Shown here piece after piece: positions 440-61,063 of a stretch of 64,000 bases of DNA. Numbering within the stretch: the first letter of the stretch is position 1; each line of letters begins with the position of its first letter. Made by a program: the position numbers and the translations under genes. The stretch is taken from the NCBI RefSeq assembly GCF_004402405.1, contig NZ_SOFE01000023.1:246297-310296 (forward strand), written 5' to 3'. The notes beneath the pieces were generated by a model. The model did not search any database. It was given only the letters and a program-made list of their open reading frames with translations, and was not told the origin of the DNA. The stretch comes from Cryobacterium levicorallinum (GTDB lineage: Bacteria > Actinomycetota > Actinomycetes > Actinomycetales > Microbacteriaceae).

Positions 440-690
440 GTCGACCTGATAGTTGGTACGCGCGAGGTCGTGGCCGACCTTCTTGGCGACGAACTCTTCG
501 CATTGGATGGCTGCGCCGTCGCGGTCGACCTGGAAGATGTGCGCTTAGCCTTCGGCGACGACGATGTGGCCTTTGGTAAAACGGGATGCCCGGTCCGCGG
601 TGGCGCGGTAGGCGACGAGATTGTAAAGCGTCTGCTCGATGGCGGTAGTGCGATACACGCTGCGGAATCTGTCGGGCCTGTTTCGTCTTC
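440..690 (-). pseudogene. plasmid/ICE-type single-stranded DNA-binding protein remnant
   Basis: Read on the minus strand, one frame gives a stretch containing NLVAYRATADRASRF, TKGHIVVAEG, then EEFVAKKVGHDLARTNYQVDR. This resembles the second half of the OB-fold in the SSB proteins carried by actinobacterial plasmids and conjugative elements (the EEFVAKKxGHDxxRTxYxVDR stretch). A TAA stop at 545-547 interrupts it in frame, directly after VVAEG, and the N-terminal strand of the OB-fold is not visible in the same frame upstream of about 690. The gene is therefore broken. Together with the tRNA scar it argues that this end of the window descends from an integrated element. The family call is from memory of motifs, not a search. 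Confidence 0.55.
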
Positions 691-3667: not shown

Positions 3668-3844
3668 GAACTTGACGCACACATGTTTATTCAACGTTTA
3701 TCGCTCCGAAACCCGCCGAGACGGCCCGAGGTGTTGAGATAATGACGACGACATCTCACGCAAGAAGCTCCAGATCAGATCGAGAAAAAGCGAGACTAAC
3801 CGAGGTTTGAATGCGAGCCGAGTATCAGCCTAAATGGCCTCGGT

Positions 3845-3905
3845 GCAAACCGTCGGTCCCGGGTTCAAGTCCCGGCCGCCCTCCTGTAATTTGCATCTGA
3901 TCTGG
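3845..3905 (+). repeat. tRNA 3'-end fragment, copy 2 (probable attachment-site scar)
   Basis: Positions 3845-3879 are identical to 90-124, and the next 26 bases match with a few changes (the tail reads CCTCCTGT and then ATCTGATCTGG). The T-arm is intact; no 5' half of a tRNA precedes it. With copy 1 it forms 35-bp perfect direct repeats 3755 bases apart that enclose the SCO6745 gene and hipBA. The 3668-3844 stretch before it shows no gene. Confidence 0.75.
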
Positions 3906-3949
3906 GATTTTATCCGGCAAAAATCGTCGAGATTTGACTATAAGAACAT

Positions 3950-9010: not shown

Positions 9011-9217
9011 ATGTTCGAACTTATTCTGGCCGCCACCGCCAGCACCTATTCTTTCTTGCGCCGGTTCATGCCGACCGCCATCGTGATCGACGCGATTAAC
9101 ACGCGGCGCGGGCTGAAGTGGGGCGTGCTGGCGATGCTGTTCGCCGTTCCGTAGGCGCTTGCAGCTATCTATTGCCGAGCACACATCCGCGTTCACCGCG
9201 CTCACCCGGCCGTGAGC
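9011..9217 (+). pseudogene. small actinobacterial membrane protein, interrupted by TAG
   Basis: From ATG 9011 the frame gives MFELILAATASTYSFLRRFM and continues with NTRRGLKWGVLAMLFAVP before a TAG at 9152-9154. The same frame then continues ALAAIYCRAHI to a second stop at about 9215. This matches a family of roughly 90-100-residue actinobacterial membrane proteins (often mislabelled sulfate permease) in which a tyrosine and a second hydrophobic segment follow AVP. The gene is therefore interrupted and its C-terminus lost. The rest of 8806-9326 shows no other gene. Confidence 0.5.
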
Positions 9218-9326
9218 AGATAGGCAATCATGGGTAGGCTCGATGAGGTGCGTTTGCTGAACTTGTTGACGTGCCGCTCGGCGGGCAATGTCCCGTCGCG
9301 CTCGGCTTGAACGTGAAGGAAACACC

Positions 9327-9788
9327 GTGTCTGATCACGCAAGAATCAAGGGGCACACAGTAACCCGCACCGTGCACATCGAGGCCTCGCGCGCGCGCGT
9401 CTGGAAGGCGCTGACCGACCCCGAGGTGATGGTCAAGTGGTTTGGCGACGGTGCGGGGTTCGCCGCGCTCGAACCCGGTGCTACTGGCAGCATCGACTGG
9501 GATGACTACGGCAGCTTCCCGATCGAAATCACCGAGGTCGTGCCCGACGGCTCGTTCGGCTTCCGTTGGTCGGGCATCCCCGCCGAACAGCTCGACGAGT
9601 ACTCGACGCACGTGCGCTTCACCATCGCCGATGCTGGTACCGGGACGGATGTCACGGTGATCGAATCGGGCTTCGATACACTTCCCGGCGGCACCCGCTA
9701 CCGTCGCGAACGTCTTGAGCAGAACCGGGAGGGCTGGGACGTCGAACTCGACGAGCTCGCGCTCCTCTTCGAGGGTGTCTCGGAGTAG
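9327..9788 (+). CDS. SRPBCC / AHSA1-like domain protein
   Basis: The 153-residue protein begins with TVTRTVHIEASRARVWKALT, the standard opening of the START/Bet-v1-like AHSA1 family, and includes the tryptophan-rich VMVKWFGD and SFGFRWSGIP strands and a long C-terminal helix (EGWDVELDELALLFEG). The fold makes a hydrophobic ligand cavity; substrates of single-domain bacterial members are mostly unknown. The GTG at 9327 is chosen because GAAGGA precedes it and the protein then starts just before the first beta strand; an upstream ATG would add residues without homology. The minus strand opposite it extends the PLP-pseudogene frame by chance. Confidence 0.75.
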   Translation: MSDHARIKGHTVTRTVHIEASRARVWKALTDPEVMVKWFGDGAGFAALEPGATGSIDWDDYGSFPIEITEVVPDGSFGFRWSGIPAEQLDEYSTHVRFTIADAGTGTDVTVIESGFDTLPGGTRYRRERLEQNREGWDVELDELALLFEGVSE

Positions 9789-9799
9789 CTCACGATGTC

Positions 9800-10649
9800 G
9801 GGAGTTGCTCGACGAGTTAGCCACGTTGCGCGGCCGGTAGAGGACTATGTGGCGGAGCGCAGAGGATGTGCGTGAAAGCTCCCAAAATCTGCCCAGAGCG
9901 CGGTTCGTAACCCCGCCGACGTCGACCAAGGCGTCATGGCGGATTCGGTCGATCAGGGCGGCGTTGCCGGTGACGACGCCGTCCATCGCGTCACCGTGAC
10001 CGTTGATGTACTTCGTTAGGGAGTGCACGGCGAGATCGGCGCCGTGTTCGAGAGTGCGGAAGAACGGTGGGTGTGTGAAGGTTGCGTCCACGCTCAACAG
10101 GAGCCCCTTGTAGTGGGTGATAGCCGCGAGGGAGCTGATGTCGGCGACCTTGGTGGTGGGGTTCGCGATTGTCGCGACGTGGATCAGCTTCGTGCTGGGC
10201 CGGATTGCTTCCCGGACCGCGTCGTCGTCGGCGACGAAGGACGCTTCGATCCCGTACCGTTCCGGCGGCAGCTCAGAGAACAGTCGCCAGACAGCCTCGT
10301 AGGTGACGTCGGAGACGATCACGTGATCGCCAGTGCGCAGCAGGGTGAAGAATACCCCGTGTAGGGCCGCGACACCGGTCGCGAACGCTACCGTCACCTC
10401 CCCGCCTTCGAGCGCTGCGATCTTTCTTTCAAGGGCTTCCTGGTTGGCGGAACCATTCCGCCCGTAGACCAGCTGCTCGGTCGCTGATCAGTTCATCGAT
10501 GCCGGGTCCTCGGGCAGCAAATAGGAGTTCGCCATCACCAACGGGCTCCGGATCGCGCCCGTACCGGCATCGATGCGGTTACCACCATGGACGGCCCAGG
10601 TGAGGTCGCCAACGGTCGAGGCGTCGTGCTTGTCCGGTGAAGGCGTCAT
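9800..10649 (-). pseudogene. PLP-dependent Cys/Met-metabolism (trans-sulfuration type) enzyme, interrupted and 3'-truncated
   Basis: From the minus-strand ATG at 10649 the frame reads a typical N-terminus (TWAVHGGNRIDAGTGAIRSP, SYLLPEDPASMN), hits TGA at 10488-10490, and continues in the same frame with SATEQLVYGRNGSANQEALE and the family core: VAFATGVAAL, NPTTKVADI and the PLP-lysine motif HSLTKYINGHGD. The stop stands where relatives have a tryptophan (SW or NWS), so a single TGG to TGA change explains it. After GRFWELSRTSSA the homology ends at about 9810, losing the C-terminal domain. Both lesions make a functional enzyme unlikely. Its neighbour upstream is also broken. It would have been a cystathionine gamma-lyase/methionine gamma-lyase relative. 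Confidence 0.75.
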
Positions 10650-10688
10650 GGTAGTCCTGTTCCGGGAGGTAGAACGCGAGTGGCGAGG

Positions 10689-11399
10689 TCAGTTGGGGGT
10701 GGGGCGCGCGAGGATTCGCGATTCGACGCCGACGTGGGGGCCGAGCCGGGCGAGGTGGGTGGCGAGGTCTTCGTGCAGCTGCTCGTCGGTCATCGCGGCA
10801 AGCGCATCCAAGATGAACAGGGCACGTGTGGTGCTGTCGCTCAGCCGCGTGCGGCGGCCTTGACGCCAGTTCCACCGCCGGCAGGTGACGCCGGCGTCAT
10901 CGCACTAGACGACCTCACCGGAGTCGGGGTGCTCGGTGACGTCGGCGCCGCCGGCACTGGTATCGAAAGTGTCGTCGCCAGTGGCACGGATGAGGCGGGG
11001 TGCGCCGACGTAACGGTCAAGGTCCTCGCCGCCGAGAGGCACCTGATGCAGGACGGAGATCGCGTTATAGAGGTCCGTCAGCCGGTTCACCCGTGGCAGT
11101 CCGTCCCCGGCCCGGCGAAGGAGCGCCTCGAGGCTGTTCCTCGTGCGTTGCGGTTTCGCACCGAAGCCACGGTTGGCATCCCGCCACGCCGCAACGTGTG
11201 GCACCTCCTCGACCGGTGCTGCTGCCAGGAGGTGCCGGGCTGTTGTCTCCGCCTCGTGGAGCAGAGCGTCACCGGCGTCGTCGCTTTCCCCCAGGGTGAG
11301 GCCGGACACGGTGAGGAGGCAGGCGCGGTAGTCCGGTCGAAGCGCGAAGATCTCATCGTCGACGCAGGCCCCGCTGAGGAGGTCGTGTTAGGTCGTCAT
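10689..11399 (-). pseudogene. B3/B4 (tRNA-binding) domain protein with two in-frame stops
   Basis: One minus-strand frame of 237 codons matches the stand-alone B3/4-domain family (similar to the editing domain of phenylalanyl-tRNA synthetase beta): DDEIFALRPDYRACLL, HVAAWRDANRGFGAKPQRTR, LPRVNRLTDLYNAISVLHQ, PLGGEDLDRY, and a C-terminal CDDAGVTCRRWNWRQGRR. TAA stands at codon 4 (11388-11390), where CAA is a likely ancestor. TAG stands at 10905-10907 between GEVV and CDDAGV, where relatives have tryptophan. Both are single-base transitions. Between the stops the frame is intact, so the lesions are recent, or there is readthrough or sequence error. The gene follows the XRE-cupin regulator. Confidence 0.72.
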
Positions 11400-11412: not shown

Positions 11413-12030
11413 TCAGGTGGTCTGGTGGGAGGGGCGTGGGCTGGACGTACCGACGCCGGGCTCGAAGACGGCAAGCGTGAACTCCGCAGTGGATTTCGAC
11501 GTGTTCGCGTAGGCGTGCGCTTGGTCGCCATCGAACGCGAAGGTATCGCCGGGGCTGAGGCTCACCTCATCGGGGCCGACGGTGAGGTTCACCACGCCTC
11601 TGCCGACGTGCAGGATCTCTCGTGTGCCAGCAACATGGGGCGTGTTTTCGTGGGTATCTCCGGGGGCAAGGGTCCACTGCCACAGTTCCAAGACGTCGGG
11701 CGACGGGGTACCCGCAAGCAAAATTCCACTACCGCCGCTCGGGCTTGACCAAAGTTCCGCGCCGTCGCCGCGACGCGTCAGTGCCGCTGGAACACCGTCC
11801 CGGGCTGCGACCAGCGTCGGAAGGTCGATTCCGAGCGCATCACTGAGAAGGAGCAGGGTCGCCACGCTCGGGTTGGCCTCGCCTTTTTCGACCTTGACGA
11901 TCATCCGACGGCTGACCCCGGACTGCGCCGCCACCTCATCGAGCGTCCACTTCAGGGCATGCCGGCACGCTCGAATGCGCGCGCCGATGACCGCCGCCAA
12001 GTCATCCGGTTCAACACCCACACGGTGCAT
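11413..12030 (-). CDS. XRE-family regulator with cupin domain
   Basis: The 205-residue protein has an XRE helix-turn-helix (about residues 17-72: LKWTLDEVAAQSGVSRRMIV, GEANPSVATLLLL) and a C-terminal cupin (DTHENTPHVAGTREILHVG, VSLSPGDTFAFDGDQAHAY). It is divergent from the DapA-like gene, with only 57 bases between the start codons. It heads the minus-strand set that continues into the B3/4 and PLP pseudogenes, all close or abutting. A GTGCA-N6-TGCAC dyad covers its own start codon, which suggests autorepression and control of the divergent gene. The regulator itself is intact although its downstream genes are not. Confidence 0.85.
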   Translation of the reverse strand: MHRVGVEPDDLAAVIGARIRACRHALKWTLDEVAAQSGVSRRMIVKVEKGEANPSVATLLLLSDALGIDLPTLVAARDGVPAALTRRGDGAELWSSPSGGSGILLAGTPSPDVLELWQWTLAPGDTHENTPHVAGTREILHVGRGVVNLTVGPDEVSLSPGDTFAFDGDQAHAYANTSKSTAEFTLAVFEPGVGTSSPRPSHQTT

Positions 12031-12040
12031 TATAGTGCAC
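12025..12040. promoter_or_regulatory. GTGCA-N6-TGCAC operator dyad
   Basis: A perfect inverted repeat GTGCATTATAGTGCAC spans 12025-12040; its left arm includes the regulator's start codon (complement of CAT at 12028-12030). It lies 48 bases upstream of the DapA-like start. The position in a short divergent junction makes it the likely binding site of the XRE-cupin protein (inference). Confidence 0.55.
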
Positions 12041-12087
12041 TAGGGTGGAAGGACTGCCGCAGCTACTGCCATCCGAATGGAGTGCCC

Positions 12088-12993
12088 ATGTTCACCGGTC
12101 TGAGCGCCTTCCCCTTGACGCCGCTCCGCAACGACGCATTCGACGAGACCGCCTACGCGGGGCTGATCGGGAAGTTGGTCACTGCGGGTGTCGACTCGAT
12201 CACCGCTCTCGGCTCGACCGGGTCGTACATGTATCTGGACCGCGAGGAGCGACGCCGGGTGGCACTGTGCGCCGTCCAGCACGCCGAGACGGTGCCAGTG
12301 ATCGTCGGCATTGGTGCGCTCCGCACCTCGCACGTCCTCGCCCTGGCGGAAGACGCGCAGGAAGCTGGCGCACGCGCCGTGCTGCTGGCACCGGTCAGCT
12401 ACCAGCCGCTCACGGACGATGACGTCTTCGGGTTGTTCGAGGACGTGACCTCGAACCTGTCTGTGCCGTTGGTCGTCTACGACAACCCCGGCACCACCCA
12501 CGTCACCTTCACCGACGACTTGTACGCCAGCATCGCCCGACTCCCGCAGGTGGCCGCGATCAAGATCCCGGGAGTCCCCGGAGTGCCAGCCCGTGCCGCC
12601 GCCCGGGTGCAAACAATCCGGGATGCGGTGCCCGCACACGTGACCGTGGGGGTCTCTGGTGATGCCTCGGCAGCGACCGGGTTGAACGCCGGATGCGACG
12701 CCTGGTACTCCGTGATCGGCGGAACACTCCCCGAACTCGCCCTCGCGATCACACGGGCCGCACAAGACGGCGATAGCAGCGAAGCCGAGCAACAGTCCGC
12801 GCGGCTCGAGCCGCTGTGGGCCCTCTTCGCCGAGCTCGGCGGGAGCTACCGGGTGGTTGCCGCGATCGCAGAACAACTGGGCTTGGTGGCCCCGGACTGT
12901 CTGCCGCGCCCCATCCGAGGGTTGAACGCTCCGGCACGCGCCCGCGTCGAAGCTGTGATGACCAGGCTGCAGCTCGGAGCCGAGACCGCGTGA
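12088..12993 (+). CDS. DapA-like lyase/synthase (dihydrodipicolinate synthase family)
   Basis: The 301-residue protein is a class I aldolase-type TIM barrel of the DapA/NAL family. The pyruvate-anchoring motif GSTGSY (42-47), catalytic tyrosine in VVYDNPGTT (Y131) and Schiff-base lysine in AAIKIPG (K159) are all present. The family includes dihydrodipicolinate synthase, N-acetylneuraminate lyase and several keto-deoxy sugar or hydroxyproline-derivative lyases; the position next to a cupin regulator, away from lysine genes, argues for a catabolic aldolase. ATG 12088 has a GGAG ribosome site. A decayed relative of this gene lies at about 51410-51535. Confidence 0.82.
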   Translation: MFTGLSAFPLTPLRNDAFDETAYAGLIGKLVTAGVDSITALGSTGSYMYLDREERRRVALCAVQHAETVPVIVGIGALRTSHVLALAEDAQEAGARAVLLAPVSYQPLTDDDVFGLFEDVTSNLSVPLVVYDNPGTTHVTFTDDLYASIARLPQVAAIKIPGVPGVPARAAARVQTIRDAVPAHVTVGVSGDASAATGLNAGCDAWYSVIGGTLPELALAITRAAQDGDSSEAEQQSARLEPLWALFAELGGSYRVVAAIAEQLGLVAPDCLPRPIRGLNAPARARVEAVMTRLQLGAETA

Positions 12994-22440: not shown

Positions 22441-22690
22441 GCTGTGTGTTTGGGGCTCGGCAGCACGATCCTCTCCGCCTCGGTGCCGTTCGACCTCGTC
22501 AGCAACCGCAGCCGGGCGGGGCGAAGACGCAACTTCTTCTCAGAACTTTTGCCGGAAGGCACCGCCCTGGACAACCTCGCTGCCGAGATCAGAGTCTCCA
22601 GCGACGACACTATTGCGTTGCTGGCCCAGTTCGGCTGCGACGTAGCCGGTGCCATTCAGACCCACGTCATCAAGCCACCGTGCCGACATC
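22441..22690 (+). pseudogene. hipA fragment with internal deletion
   Basis: The frame VCLGLGSTILSASVPFDLVS ... DDTIALLAQFGCDVAGAIQ is closely similar (about 85% by eye at DNA level) to codons 40-108 of the intact hipA at 2414. It then joins in frame to THVIKP, which corresponds to codons 180-185. Seventy-one codons, including the autophosphorylated-serine loop, are missing. Both ends are lost: no start, and divergence after HVIKP. No hipB accompanies it. After it, 22690-22745 contains a short frame with HLIRNTFK, reminiscent of IS256-type transposases but too short to assign. Confidence 0.85.
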
Positions 22691-53619: not shown

Positions 53620-54054
53620 ATGCTTCAAGGAGTCTTTGTCGACGCCAATGTCTTGCTGAGTTGAACGACGCGTAACTGGCTCTTCCTCATGCTCAACAAG
53701 ACGCAGCAGTTGTTCCAGCTCCACGCAACGATTGACGTCGTCATCAAAATAGTTCGTGCTCGACGGGGCGTGAAGCCTGAACTCGACGGAAACATCACCC
53801 GTCGTCTCGACGATGACGTCGTCGAGAACCTTGACGAGATTATCGCCGACTTTGACGGGTCCATCGCATTCCACGGCTCTGATGCCCACGACCGACACGT
53901 CCATGCCGCCGCAACTGCAGCGGCCTCCAATTTCTTGCTCACCAGTAACGGCAGCGACCGGCCGAATTGTGTGCTTTCTTTGCCCGGTACAAGACTTACT
54001 GCCTCACACGGGCTTCTGACGTTCGCGTGCGGTGTGACACTGATCAAGCTCTAG
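53620..54054 (+). pseudogene. PIN-domain toxin with in-frame TGA
   Basis: From ATG 53620 the frame gives LQGVFVDANVLLS, the first PIN motif with its metal-binding aspartate. TGA follows at 53662-53664, then in the same frame TTRNWLFLMLN and the remainder of the domain with DAHDRHVHAAATAAASNFLL and TSNGSD. PIN relatives have S-R-T-x-R-x-W at this point, so CGA to TGA explains the stop. Homology weakens after SNGSD, so the C-terminus may also be altered. A residual product could start at ATG 53689 but would lack the first aspartate. No cognate antitoxin was found next to it. Confidence 0.65.
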
Positions 54055-58444: not shown

Positions 58445-58937
58445 TTGTGTGTCGCGTGTCACGGACGTGGAGCCTGCACGGCGCCGACGCCTGATGCAGG
58501 CGCGGGTCCAAGGGCGGAGACCCCGAGCAGGCTCACGACTTGTTGGCCTAGTGGCCGTTGCGGCGAGCCTGTAACGGGCAGCGTGCAGGCGGTCAAGGTT
58601 TTGTGATGGCCGGCCCTGCTGGCTGGACCAACGCGATCACGTTCCTCGTATGCACTGCCGGTGCATCCGTTGATGGAGTCCTTACCGCCATCGGAAATAC
58701 GCGTACGCGCCCCTGAGCCGCACCGGGACGCCAGGGCATTCCCGGCTAAGCGTCCCGCAAGACGTTCCCCATCCGGGATGGCAGCGACGGTCGATGCCGG
58801 CAGAATGGCCAGTGCAAACGAGTGCTGAAATTTGTGCAGCCAAGTACGGCAAATGACACCCACGCGCATGGTTCCGCGTACGCCCGATTCCCGTGAGCCC
58901 CGCCCGAGAAAATGCCCGGTCAAAAGGGGTAAATGGT

Positions 58938-58954
58938 ACCTGCTAGAAGCAGGT
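58938..58954. promoter_or_regulatory. dyad in front of the resolvase start
   Basis: ACCTGCT-AGA-AGCAGGT is a perfect 7-bp inverted repeat ending six bases before the resolvase ATG. It could be part of a res site or the operator for autoregulation. Confidence 0.4.
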
Positions 58955-58959
58955 CCGGC

Positions 58960-59405
58960 ATGCTAATAGGCTACGCGCGCGTATCCACCAACGACCAGGA
59001 CCTCACCGCCCTGCGAAACGCCCGGGCCGCTCATGGCGTGACGCCAGAGAAGACGTTCACCGTCCAAGGCCTGACCGGCGCCAACCGGGCACGACCCGGA
59101 CTCAGGGAAGCACTAGCCGCCTGCCGGGACGGTGACACCCTGGTCGTGACCAAACAGGACCGACTGGCCCGTACCCTGCGCGACGCAAAGGACGTTGTCG
59201 ACGAACTCACCCGCCGCGAAGTCAAGCTCAGCATCGGAGGCTCCATTCACGACCCCACCGATACCGTCGGCCGGCTCCTCTTTAACGTCCTGGCCATGGT
59301 CGCGGAACTCGAAGCCGACCTGATCCGCGCACAAACCCGGGAAGGGATGGCCGTAGCCAAAGCCAAGGGCCGCCTACGAGGCAAACGGTCCAAGCTTTTC
59401 AAAGC
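58960..59405 (+). pseudogene. serine recombinase (Tn3-type resolvase), C-terminally truncated
   Basis: ATG 58960 begins MLIGYARVSTNDQDLTALRN with the catalytic serine in ARVSTND. The rest of the catalytic domain and the E helix are intact (VVTKQDRLARTLRDAKDVVD, LLFNVLAMVAELEADLIRAQ, TREGMAVAKAKGRLRGKRSK). Relatives continue with a 40-residue helix-turn-helix that binds res; here the frame changes to unrelated sequence after about 59400, so that domain is missing. The frame stays open to 59865 as a chimera. The protein could still be made but would bind DNA poorly. It marks the right side of the accessory segment. Confidence 0.8.
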
Positions 59406-59419
59406 ACAGGAGAAGCCCG

Positions 59420-59865
59420 AATTCGCAGAGGGCAGCGCGCCTCGCAGCCCGGGACACCCTCACCATTGCGCCGATCTGGTGCTGACCCACGCGACCAGTC
59501 CGACGCTCACTGCACTGTTCCGCGTATTGGGCAGCCAGACCAAGGTGGTCGCGTCCGATCGCGCTGCGCTGCTCGCGGCGATCCCCGGCCACACAGCGCA
59601 GCTGGAGGCGACGCTTCGCGCGTCGCTCGGTGCGAAGCGACGTCGGCGGGGCTTGGAGAACGACTTCCGTCCGTTCACTCCGGCATCGCTGGATCGCGTC
59701 ACGTGCCCGACGCTGATCGTGCACGCGCGCTCGGATAACACGGTGCCGGCGTCCAGCGACGAGCATGCCCATGCGCATATTGTCGGCTCCGAGCTGTATG
59801 GATGGATGGATCGGTCCTCGCGTTCGCTCTCGAGGCCGCCGACACGGCTCCGGGGTAGGTCCTGA
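59420..59865 (+). pseudogene. alpha/beta-hydrolase, C-terminal half only
   Basis: The frame continuing from the resolvase reads LVLTHATSPTLTALFRVLGS, HTAQLEATLRASLGAKRRRR, FRPFTPASLDRVTCPTLIVH and ARSDNTVPASSDEHAHAHIV. RVTCPTLIVHARSDNTVP is the strand and catalytic-aspartate loop of alpha/beta hydrolases. The expected terminal histidine region is changed by a shift near 59800. It complements the N-terminal half at 51904, suggesting one gene split by the intervening 7.2 kb. Confidence 0.6.
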
Positions 59866-60049: not shown

Positions 60050-61063
60050 ATGACGACAACAATGCCGCCCGACGTGGCGGAAAACCTGATCGCTTTCAGA
60101 GCAGCGCTGGCCGCAGTGGTGCCGCCGAAGCACCCCGCCGATCTACTGATCGCGACCTGGAACCTTCGGGCATTGGGGGATTTCACAGCCAAGTGGCACG
60201 CCGAACCGGGGGATACTCCCAAGCGGGACTGGTACTCCCTCGCGTGCATCGCTGCGGTCGTGACCTGCTTTGATGTGATGGCAGTTCAAGAAGTGCGTCG
60301 CAACACAACCGCCCTGCAATTTCTGCTCGAATTGCTCGGAGATGACTGGAGAGTGGTCGTCTCCGACGTCACCGAGGGCGGCCTAGGAAACGGAGAACGG
60401 TTGACGTTTCTGTATGACTCGACTCGGGTGCAGCCTTCGGGACTGGTGGGTGAGATCGTGCTGCCAGCAAAGGTCGACGGGCCGGCCGAACAGTTCGCCC
60501 GAACGCCGTACGCCGCCACTTTTGTGCGCGGCTCAGCTGAATTCACATTGACCACCGTGCACGTCATCTGGGGGGCTGACCCGACTGCGCGGCTGCCGGA
60601 GATCACGGCGTTCGCGGAGTAGATGCGTGCCTGGGCGGATCGGACCGACCGATGGAACCAAAACCTTCTCGTGCTGGGCGATTTCAACCTCGACCGCATT
60701 GGTGACCCGCTGTTTGATGCATTTGTATCGACCGGGCTGTGGCCTCCGACCGAGCTGAATGACATCCCACGAACGGTGTTCGACAACGACACCTCAAGGC
60801 ACTTCTATGACCAGATCGCATGGTTCTCGGACTCAGACGGAAAATCCCTGCTGACCTCCCTGACCTACACCCTGGGGGCGGGTTCGTTCAACTTTCTGCC
60901 ACACCTGCTCGGCAGCCTGACACCCACCGAGGTCTCCTGGCGGATCTCTGACCACTTTCCGTTGTGGGTTGAATTCCAGCTGGCTCCAAAAGCCACCTTC
61001 TCTCAGCGTGGGCAAAACCGGGGAGCGAGCTCAGGTATTCCGCGATCAGAATCCTCTCTTTGA
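60050..61063 (+). pseudogene. endonuclease/exonuclease/phosphatase-family protein with in-frame TAG
   Basis: From ATG 60050 the frame gives LLIATWNLRALGDFTAKW (N motif), CFDVMAVQEVRRNTTALQFL (catalytic glutamate in QEVR) and TTVHVIWG. TAG follows at 60620-60622, and then in the same frame MRAWADRTDRWNQNLLVLGD, FNLDRIGDPL (GDFN motif) and EVSWRISDHFPLWVEF (SDHxP). All catalytic motifs of the DNase I/EEP family are present on either side of the stop. Relatives seem to have Q or W before MRAWA, either of which becomes TAG by one transition. Without readthrough the first part lacks the GDFN and SDH motifs. The family has nuclease or phosphatase activity; the substrate is unknown. Confidence 0.8.

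Follow-up and report, generated by a model that had tools for sequence, protein, structure and literature searches.

How should a run of in-frame stop codons be read when it falls in genes that are still recognisable: as gene death, as translation past the stops, or as an artefact of sequencing? The question is raised by the window analysed here, a 64,000-nucleotide stretch (contig 32, bases 246297-310296) of a Cryobacterium genome of 3.75 Mb in 36 contigs that is rated 100% complete. Four clustered stops, at 9152, 10488, 10905 and 11388, are spread over three dead genes, and three more lie elsewhere in the window. All seven were found at the positions and in the frames given by the first-pass annotation, namely TAG 9152 (+), TGA 10488 (-), TAG 10905 (-), TAA 11388 (-), TAA 545 (-), TGA 53662 (+) and TAG 60620 (+).

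In bacteria, accessory genes become pseudogenes through nonsense mutations and deletions, and Lerat and Ochman are said to have treated pseudogenes of this origin in 2005. The stops are genuine features of the sequence and form a cluster, and comparison with homologues makes it very likely that the genes holding them are ordinary pseudogenes, accessory to a Cryobacterium chromosome. The cluster of TAG, TGA and TAA codons is best read as ordinary gene death and involves no new reading of stop codons.

Results

Table 1. Features of the window, in window coordinates
Feature	Coordinates	Strand	Remarks
TAA in ssb-like remnant	545..547	-	Tyr in homologues; N-terminal half not recognisable
Membrane-protein gene remnant	9011..9187	+	about 59 of about 130 codons, 3' half missing; TAG 9152 at Tyr of homologues
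AHSA1 module	9186..9896	+	defined by congener identity; fairly sharp ends, at which the membrane and PLP genes are cut
AHSA1/SRPBCC-like gene	9288..9788	+	PF08327; intact, flanked by the truncated membrane and PLP genes; possible start at 9330
PLP-enzyme pseudogene, Cys/Met metabolism family	9903..10649	-	PF01053; last ~40% missing
TGA stop in PLP gene	10488..10490	-	Trp in 27/27 homologues
B3/4-domain pseudogene	10692..11399	-	PF03483; stops TAG 10905 and TAA 11388
TAG stop in B3/4 gene	10905..10907	-	Trp in 80/80 homologues
TAA stop in B3/4 gene	11388..11390	-	fourth codon; next in-frame start codon 27 codons on
XRE-cupin regulator of the operon	11413..12030	-	PF01381 and PF07883; full length
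DHDPS-family gene	11959..12993	+	PF00701, profile 2-287 of 289; full length, divergent from the operon; start may lie downstream of 11959
TGA in PIN-like remnant	53662..53664	+	CGA in G014; PIN_3 below its cut-off
Endonuclease/exonuclease/phosphatase-like gene	60050..61063	+	PF03372 just below cut-off; TAG 60620 at Trp, then ATG directly

Homologues carry sense codons at the interrupted positions

Had the homologues ended at the same sites, the stops would be natural termini. Comparison with relatives instead finds sense codons at 10488 in 27 of 27 homologues, at 10905 in 80 of 80, at 60620 in two of two and at 9152 in 12 of 12, and no stop is common to orthologues in any set examined (0/80 for B3/4, 0/27 for PLP, 0/2 for the nuclease, 0/12 for the membrane protein and 0/7 for the ssb-like gene). 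The proposal that TGA and TAG fall where relatives have tryptophan holds at 10488, 10905 and 60620, where tryptophan is found in every one of these homologues (at 60620 a third homologue, in G013, is a C-terminal piece only). It does not hold at 9152, where all 12 homologues that reach the site carry tyrosine; 13 were examined, the thirteenth, L063, ends before the site, and this comparison left out L046 and one G044 match. At 10488, six remoter paralogues of the PLP enzyme carry A, R or N. Tyrosine also occupies the position of TAA 545 in seven of seven homologues examined, out of 35 places found besides that of the window, and TGA 53662 corresponds to an arginine codon, CGA, in an 89%-identical gene of G014. 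The CAA codon suggested as the origin of TAA 11388 is unsupported, because that column holds leucine in 66 of 80 homologues, glutamine in two, and other residues or a gap in 12.

G:C to A:T transitions thus explain four of the seven stops, two are tyrosine transversions (9152 and 545), and TAA 11388 lies in a variable, mostly leucine column. Only two of the four stops in the cluster can be attributed to single transitions of this type, not the three or more first proposed. Mutation bias as an explanation fits four of the seven stops and leaves the two at tyrosine aside. PMC2936535 describes bacterial mutation as AT-biased, with G:C to A:T transitions driving the bias. When a spectrum rich in these transitions is assumed, tryptophan codons make up 0.32 of the nonsense targets in the PLP gene and 0.40 in the B3/4 gene; with a flat spectrum the fractions are 0.12 and 0.20.

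The window holds six or more broken genes, namely the membrane, PLP, B3/4, ssb-like, PIN-like and nuclease genes, which bears out the expectation of more than one dead gene. Frames that stay open and conserved on both sides of the stop are found in the B3/4 and nuclease genes, which are otherwise whole apart from their two stops and one stop, respectively. The same had been claimed for the other two genes of the cluster and is incorrect there: homology ends about 12 codons past the TAG in the membrane gene and at about codon 249 of 405-410 in the PLP gene. Lesions beyond the stop are present in the PLP, membrane, PIN-like and ssb-like genes; in the B3/4 gene the further lesion is its second stop, and in the nuclease gene none was seen.

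Two genes are truncated at an AHSA1 module

At its junction with the AHSA1 module the PLP gene is missing its 3' ~40%, and on the other side of the module the membrane gene lacks its 3' half. Similarity of the PLP gene to its homologues extends to about codon 247-249 of 405-410 (to codon 265, with a loose tail, in one group) and ends at about 9903-9909, adjoining the module end at 9893-9896. On the left, similarity of the membrane-gene DNA stops at 9178-9187 and the module starts at 9186-9202. An intact membrane paralogue in the same genome (G000:C10) and the copy in G009 are each 83% identical to the remnant. This gene family appears to exist in multiple copies, which are frequently broken. 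Two more damaged copies occur in G014, one with a stop and a lost frame (L060, G014:C45:199500-203000) and one that has been cut short (L063, G014:C37:107000-110000).

The module itself is 90-93% identical at the nucleotide level in the nine congeners examined, except for one 56-base piece at 87.5%; its surroundings differ among them, and its ends vary in some. The AHSA1 gene has a dN/dS of 0.15-0.20 against three congeners. The piece at 9186-9896 may be a small, putatively mobile module. The gene with about 100 bases on each side recurs in the nine congeners, with ends that are alike in most. A simple insertion of the module was considered and then revised: G009 and G015 show the same order of membrane gene and module, separated by 1.9 and 1.4 kb that include a further open frame, and this spacing points to a deletion between the membrane gene and the module, on its left side, in the window.

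Constraint is clearly relaxed in what is left of the PLP gene. Of 129 columns with a conservation of 95% or more, 15 are violated, 14 by missense changes and one by the stop, against 0-8 for the 27 homologues when each is left out in turn; the highest count, 8, is that of L023, which comes from a different family within the order. Since most of this comparison set (22/27) is one clade, a few of these 14 missense changes may predate the decay; the five homologues that do come from a B3/4 operon have 0-3 violations each. The ratio of missense changes to stops, 14:1 where about 15:1 is expected for undirected mutation when single-base changes are counted, fits neutral decay. Selenocysteine at TGA 10488 was rejected, because homologues carry tryptophan there.

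The PLP and B3/4 genes belong to an accessory operon

Relatives of the B3/4 gene in named genomes numbered 434, of which the 80 best were retained, and within 4 kb of these loci, contig permitting, an XRE-cupin gene was found at 60, a DHDPS gene at 17 and a PLP gene at seven. Five of the seven PLP genes are close to that of the window (67-71% identity) and two are at about 32%. Microbacterium paraoxydans (L149) has the XRE-cupin, B3/4, PLP and DHDPS genes in one row. In the genus, the B3/4 gene is present in four of 57 genomes, this one included, and is free of stops in the other three; the operon is therefore accessory, and its loss is unsurprising. The earlier suggestion of pathway loss is well supported, in that the damage affects two neighbouring genes of a single recognisable operon, of which the PLP gene is also physically truncated.

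The B3/4 gene violates four of 95 conserved columns, the stop included, a number inside the range of 0-5 for its 80 homologues; relaxed constraint is not evident in this gene or in the nuclease gene. Its two stops accompany three missense changes at strongly conserved columns, against an expected ratio of about 1:11, a departure with a chance of ~0.06 as calculated by hand.

Further losses lie outside the cluster

The ssb-like piece of the window matched no family in Pfam, and its homologue L208 matches PF00436. Across 37 genomes, ssb-like matches occur at 36 places, four of them with a stop, the window included; the other three, each in a congener and with a single in-frame stop, are G035:C31:172531, G005:C1:975223 and G015:C29:49339.

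A 68-base direct repeat (87-154 and 3842-3909, 90% identical) brackets the broken ssb-like gene together with HTH_67 and HipA-like genes, an arrangement like the ends of an integrated element. The repeat resembles the 3' half of a tRNA gene, and GGTTCAA-type motifs lie just past its second copy; ARAGORN and Rfam called no tRNA at the repeat. Related copies are present in the stretches of G010, G020 and G029 that were compared. A second direct repeat, of 211 bases and 86% identity, occupies 2528-2738 and 22450-22660. Nothing in the window reached the gathering score in Rfam, and a plasmid search returned seven records, each covering at most 6% of the query.

The PIN-like gene has lost its C-terminal end, its similarity ending at 53958. 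Its dN/dS against the G014 gene is 0.40, a value that may reflect the past of the gene. C to T and G to A are the commonest of the differences between the two (16 of 37, not polarised).

Decoding components and control families appear ordinary

A suppressor tRNA, proposed as a check on the stops, was sought among 45 matches to RF00005: the ARAGORN anticodons are all ordinary and none is TCA, CTA or TTA, in a search that a strongly divergent tRNA would escape. The sole tRNA-Trp has five anticodon-stem pairs in its predicted fold and, read from the sequence, G at positions 24 and 9. PMC13092985 describes decoding of UGA by a tRNA-Trp with a 4-bp anticodon stem. With five stem pairs, G24 and G9, the present tRNA-Trp is not one of the UGA-reading variants of that paper; the features of the 4-bp-stem or Hirsh type (an unpaired top or bottom stem pair, or A24) are absent from the tRNA-Trp found. 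The two release-factor matches are stop-free frames of 373 and 374 residues.

As controls, matches to three large families were inspected for in-frame stops in this genome, and none was seen among the matches listed: 0/123 for ABC, 0/28 for SDR and 0/31 for MFS, or 0/182 in all. Here 31 of 45 MFS matches were listed, 150 of 199 ABC candidates were scored, and matches are places, so that some genes are counted twice. Because none of the 182 holds a stop, the cluster is more than chance. A wide erosion of the genome, also entertained, is not seen in these MFS, SDR and ABC matches. One MFS match listed from another genome, G014, holds a TGA. Consistent use of one stop codon as sense was not encountered: the broken genes contain TAA, TAG and TGA alike, and the 182 control matches listed hold no in-frame stop.

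Discussion

The course of decay that we propose begins with an accessory operon, comprising the XRE-cupin regulator, the B3/4-domain protein and the PLP enzyme, that would have lost its function. With the pathway no longer of use, nonsense and missense changes would have accumulated without selection, mainly through G:C to A:T transitions, a common type of mutation to which tryptophan codons would offer a main target. The PLP and B3/4 genes together now hold three stops, and in the PLP gene conserved residues have changed at many sites. Separate losses would account for the stops at 545, 53662 and 60620, in genes that the search found in some genomes only. Stops at conserved residues, lost ends, relaxed constraint in the PLP gene and patchy presence in the genus are all features of bacterial pseudogenes, from which nothing here differs notably; the B3/4 and nuclease genes have only begun to decay and show little or no change apart from their stops.

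Could the stops instead be read through, by suppression or recoding such as tryptophan at UGA and UAG, so that the proteins are still made? Three of the seven do stand at tryptophans of the homologues, and the B3/4 and nuclease genes are otherwise well kept. Belinky et al. 2021 (PMC7918605) regard lone in-frame stops unaccompanied by other decay as poor pseudogene markers that may be read through. By that account the nuclease alone fits well, its lone stop standing without other signs of decay, whereas the PLP, membrane, PIN-like and ssb-like genes are damaged elsewhere and no stop is common to the orthologues examined. The UGA at a tryptophan site in the PLP gene likewise recalls the system in PMC13092985, from which the five-pair stem, G24 and G9 set this genome apart; the UAG and UAA stops would remain uncovered. 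The stops include TAA, TAG and TGA, with two at tyrosine and one at arginine, and the PLP and membrane genes are without their ends. None of the 45 tRNAs found is a suppressor, the tRNA-Trp is canonical, the release factors are intact and the control matches listed are free of stops. Readthrough, raised by the first-pass annotation, is thus contradicted by other lesions in the PLP, membrane, PIN-like and ssb-like genes, its genomic means were not found, and we regard it as exceedingly improbable. Codon reassignment or a suppressor tRNA is unsupported by the tRNA set, the release factors and the tRNA-Trp stem, and A-to-I editing of UAG to UGG would leave the tyrosine stops and the truncations unexplained.

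The remaining rivals concern how the stops came about. Errors of base calling or assembly would suit single substitutions within open frames in an assembly of 36 contigs, but the control matches listed from the same assembly hold no stop, and a few wrong bases cannot yield truncations and missense changes at conserved sites; the earlier suggestion of such error is scarcely credible. A local hypermutation acting on G:C pairs has in its favour the four transitions among the seven stops and the prevalence of C to T and G to A, unpolarised as it is, between the PIN-like gene and its G014 counterpart. Against it stand the two tyrosine transversions and the intact AHSA1 gene, with its low dN/dS, inside the cluster; moreover, a general AT mutation bias is already known (PMC2936535), and tryptophan codons are a large share of nonsense targets in the assumed biased spectrum. 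We give it next to no chance. Loss of the B3/4-PLP operon favoured by selection, which would have placed stops ahead of other decay, draws on the excess of stops over missense changes in the B3/4 gene. That deviation is weak, however, the PLP gene of the same operon fits neutral decay, and one stop suffices where two are found, so selected loss appears highly unlikely.

Under ordinary gene death, pseudogene is the right annotation for the PLP, B3/4, membrane, ssb-like and PIN-like genes, and probable pseudogene for the nuclease. Biologically, the window adds one more accessory operon under loss in a high G+C actinobacterium. The stops in question are markers of gene decay, and no sign of recoding was seen.

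In the nuclease gene no lesion besides TAG 60620 was seen. Of the columns identical in G016 and G017, the window copy differs at 48 of the 152 that precede the stop and at 33 of the 106 that follow it, and both parts therefore evolved alike until recently; the dS of 1.4-1.7 against these two genomes leaves little weight on the dN/dS of the gene. It is probably a very recent pseudogene, the simpler reading because a search of 40 genomes found the gene in four, that of the window among them, and G013 retains a C-terminal piece only. The codon right after the TAG is an ATG, so a restart of translation is possible. That the gene is not dead but split, with a stop at TAG 60620 and a restart at the ATG, or with readthrough, giving two halves or an occasional full-length protein, we consider very unlikely. 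Just upstream of the interrupted nuclease, at 58933-59862, lies a gene for a resolvase-family recombinase (PF00239).
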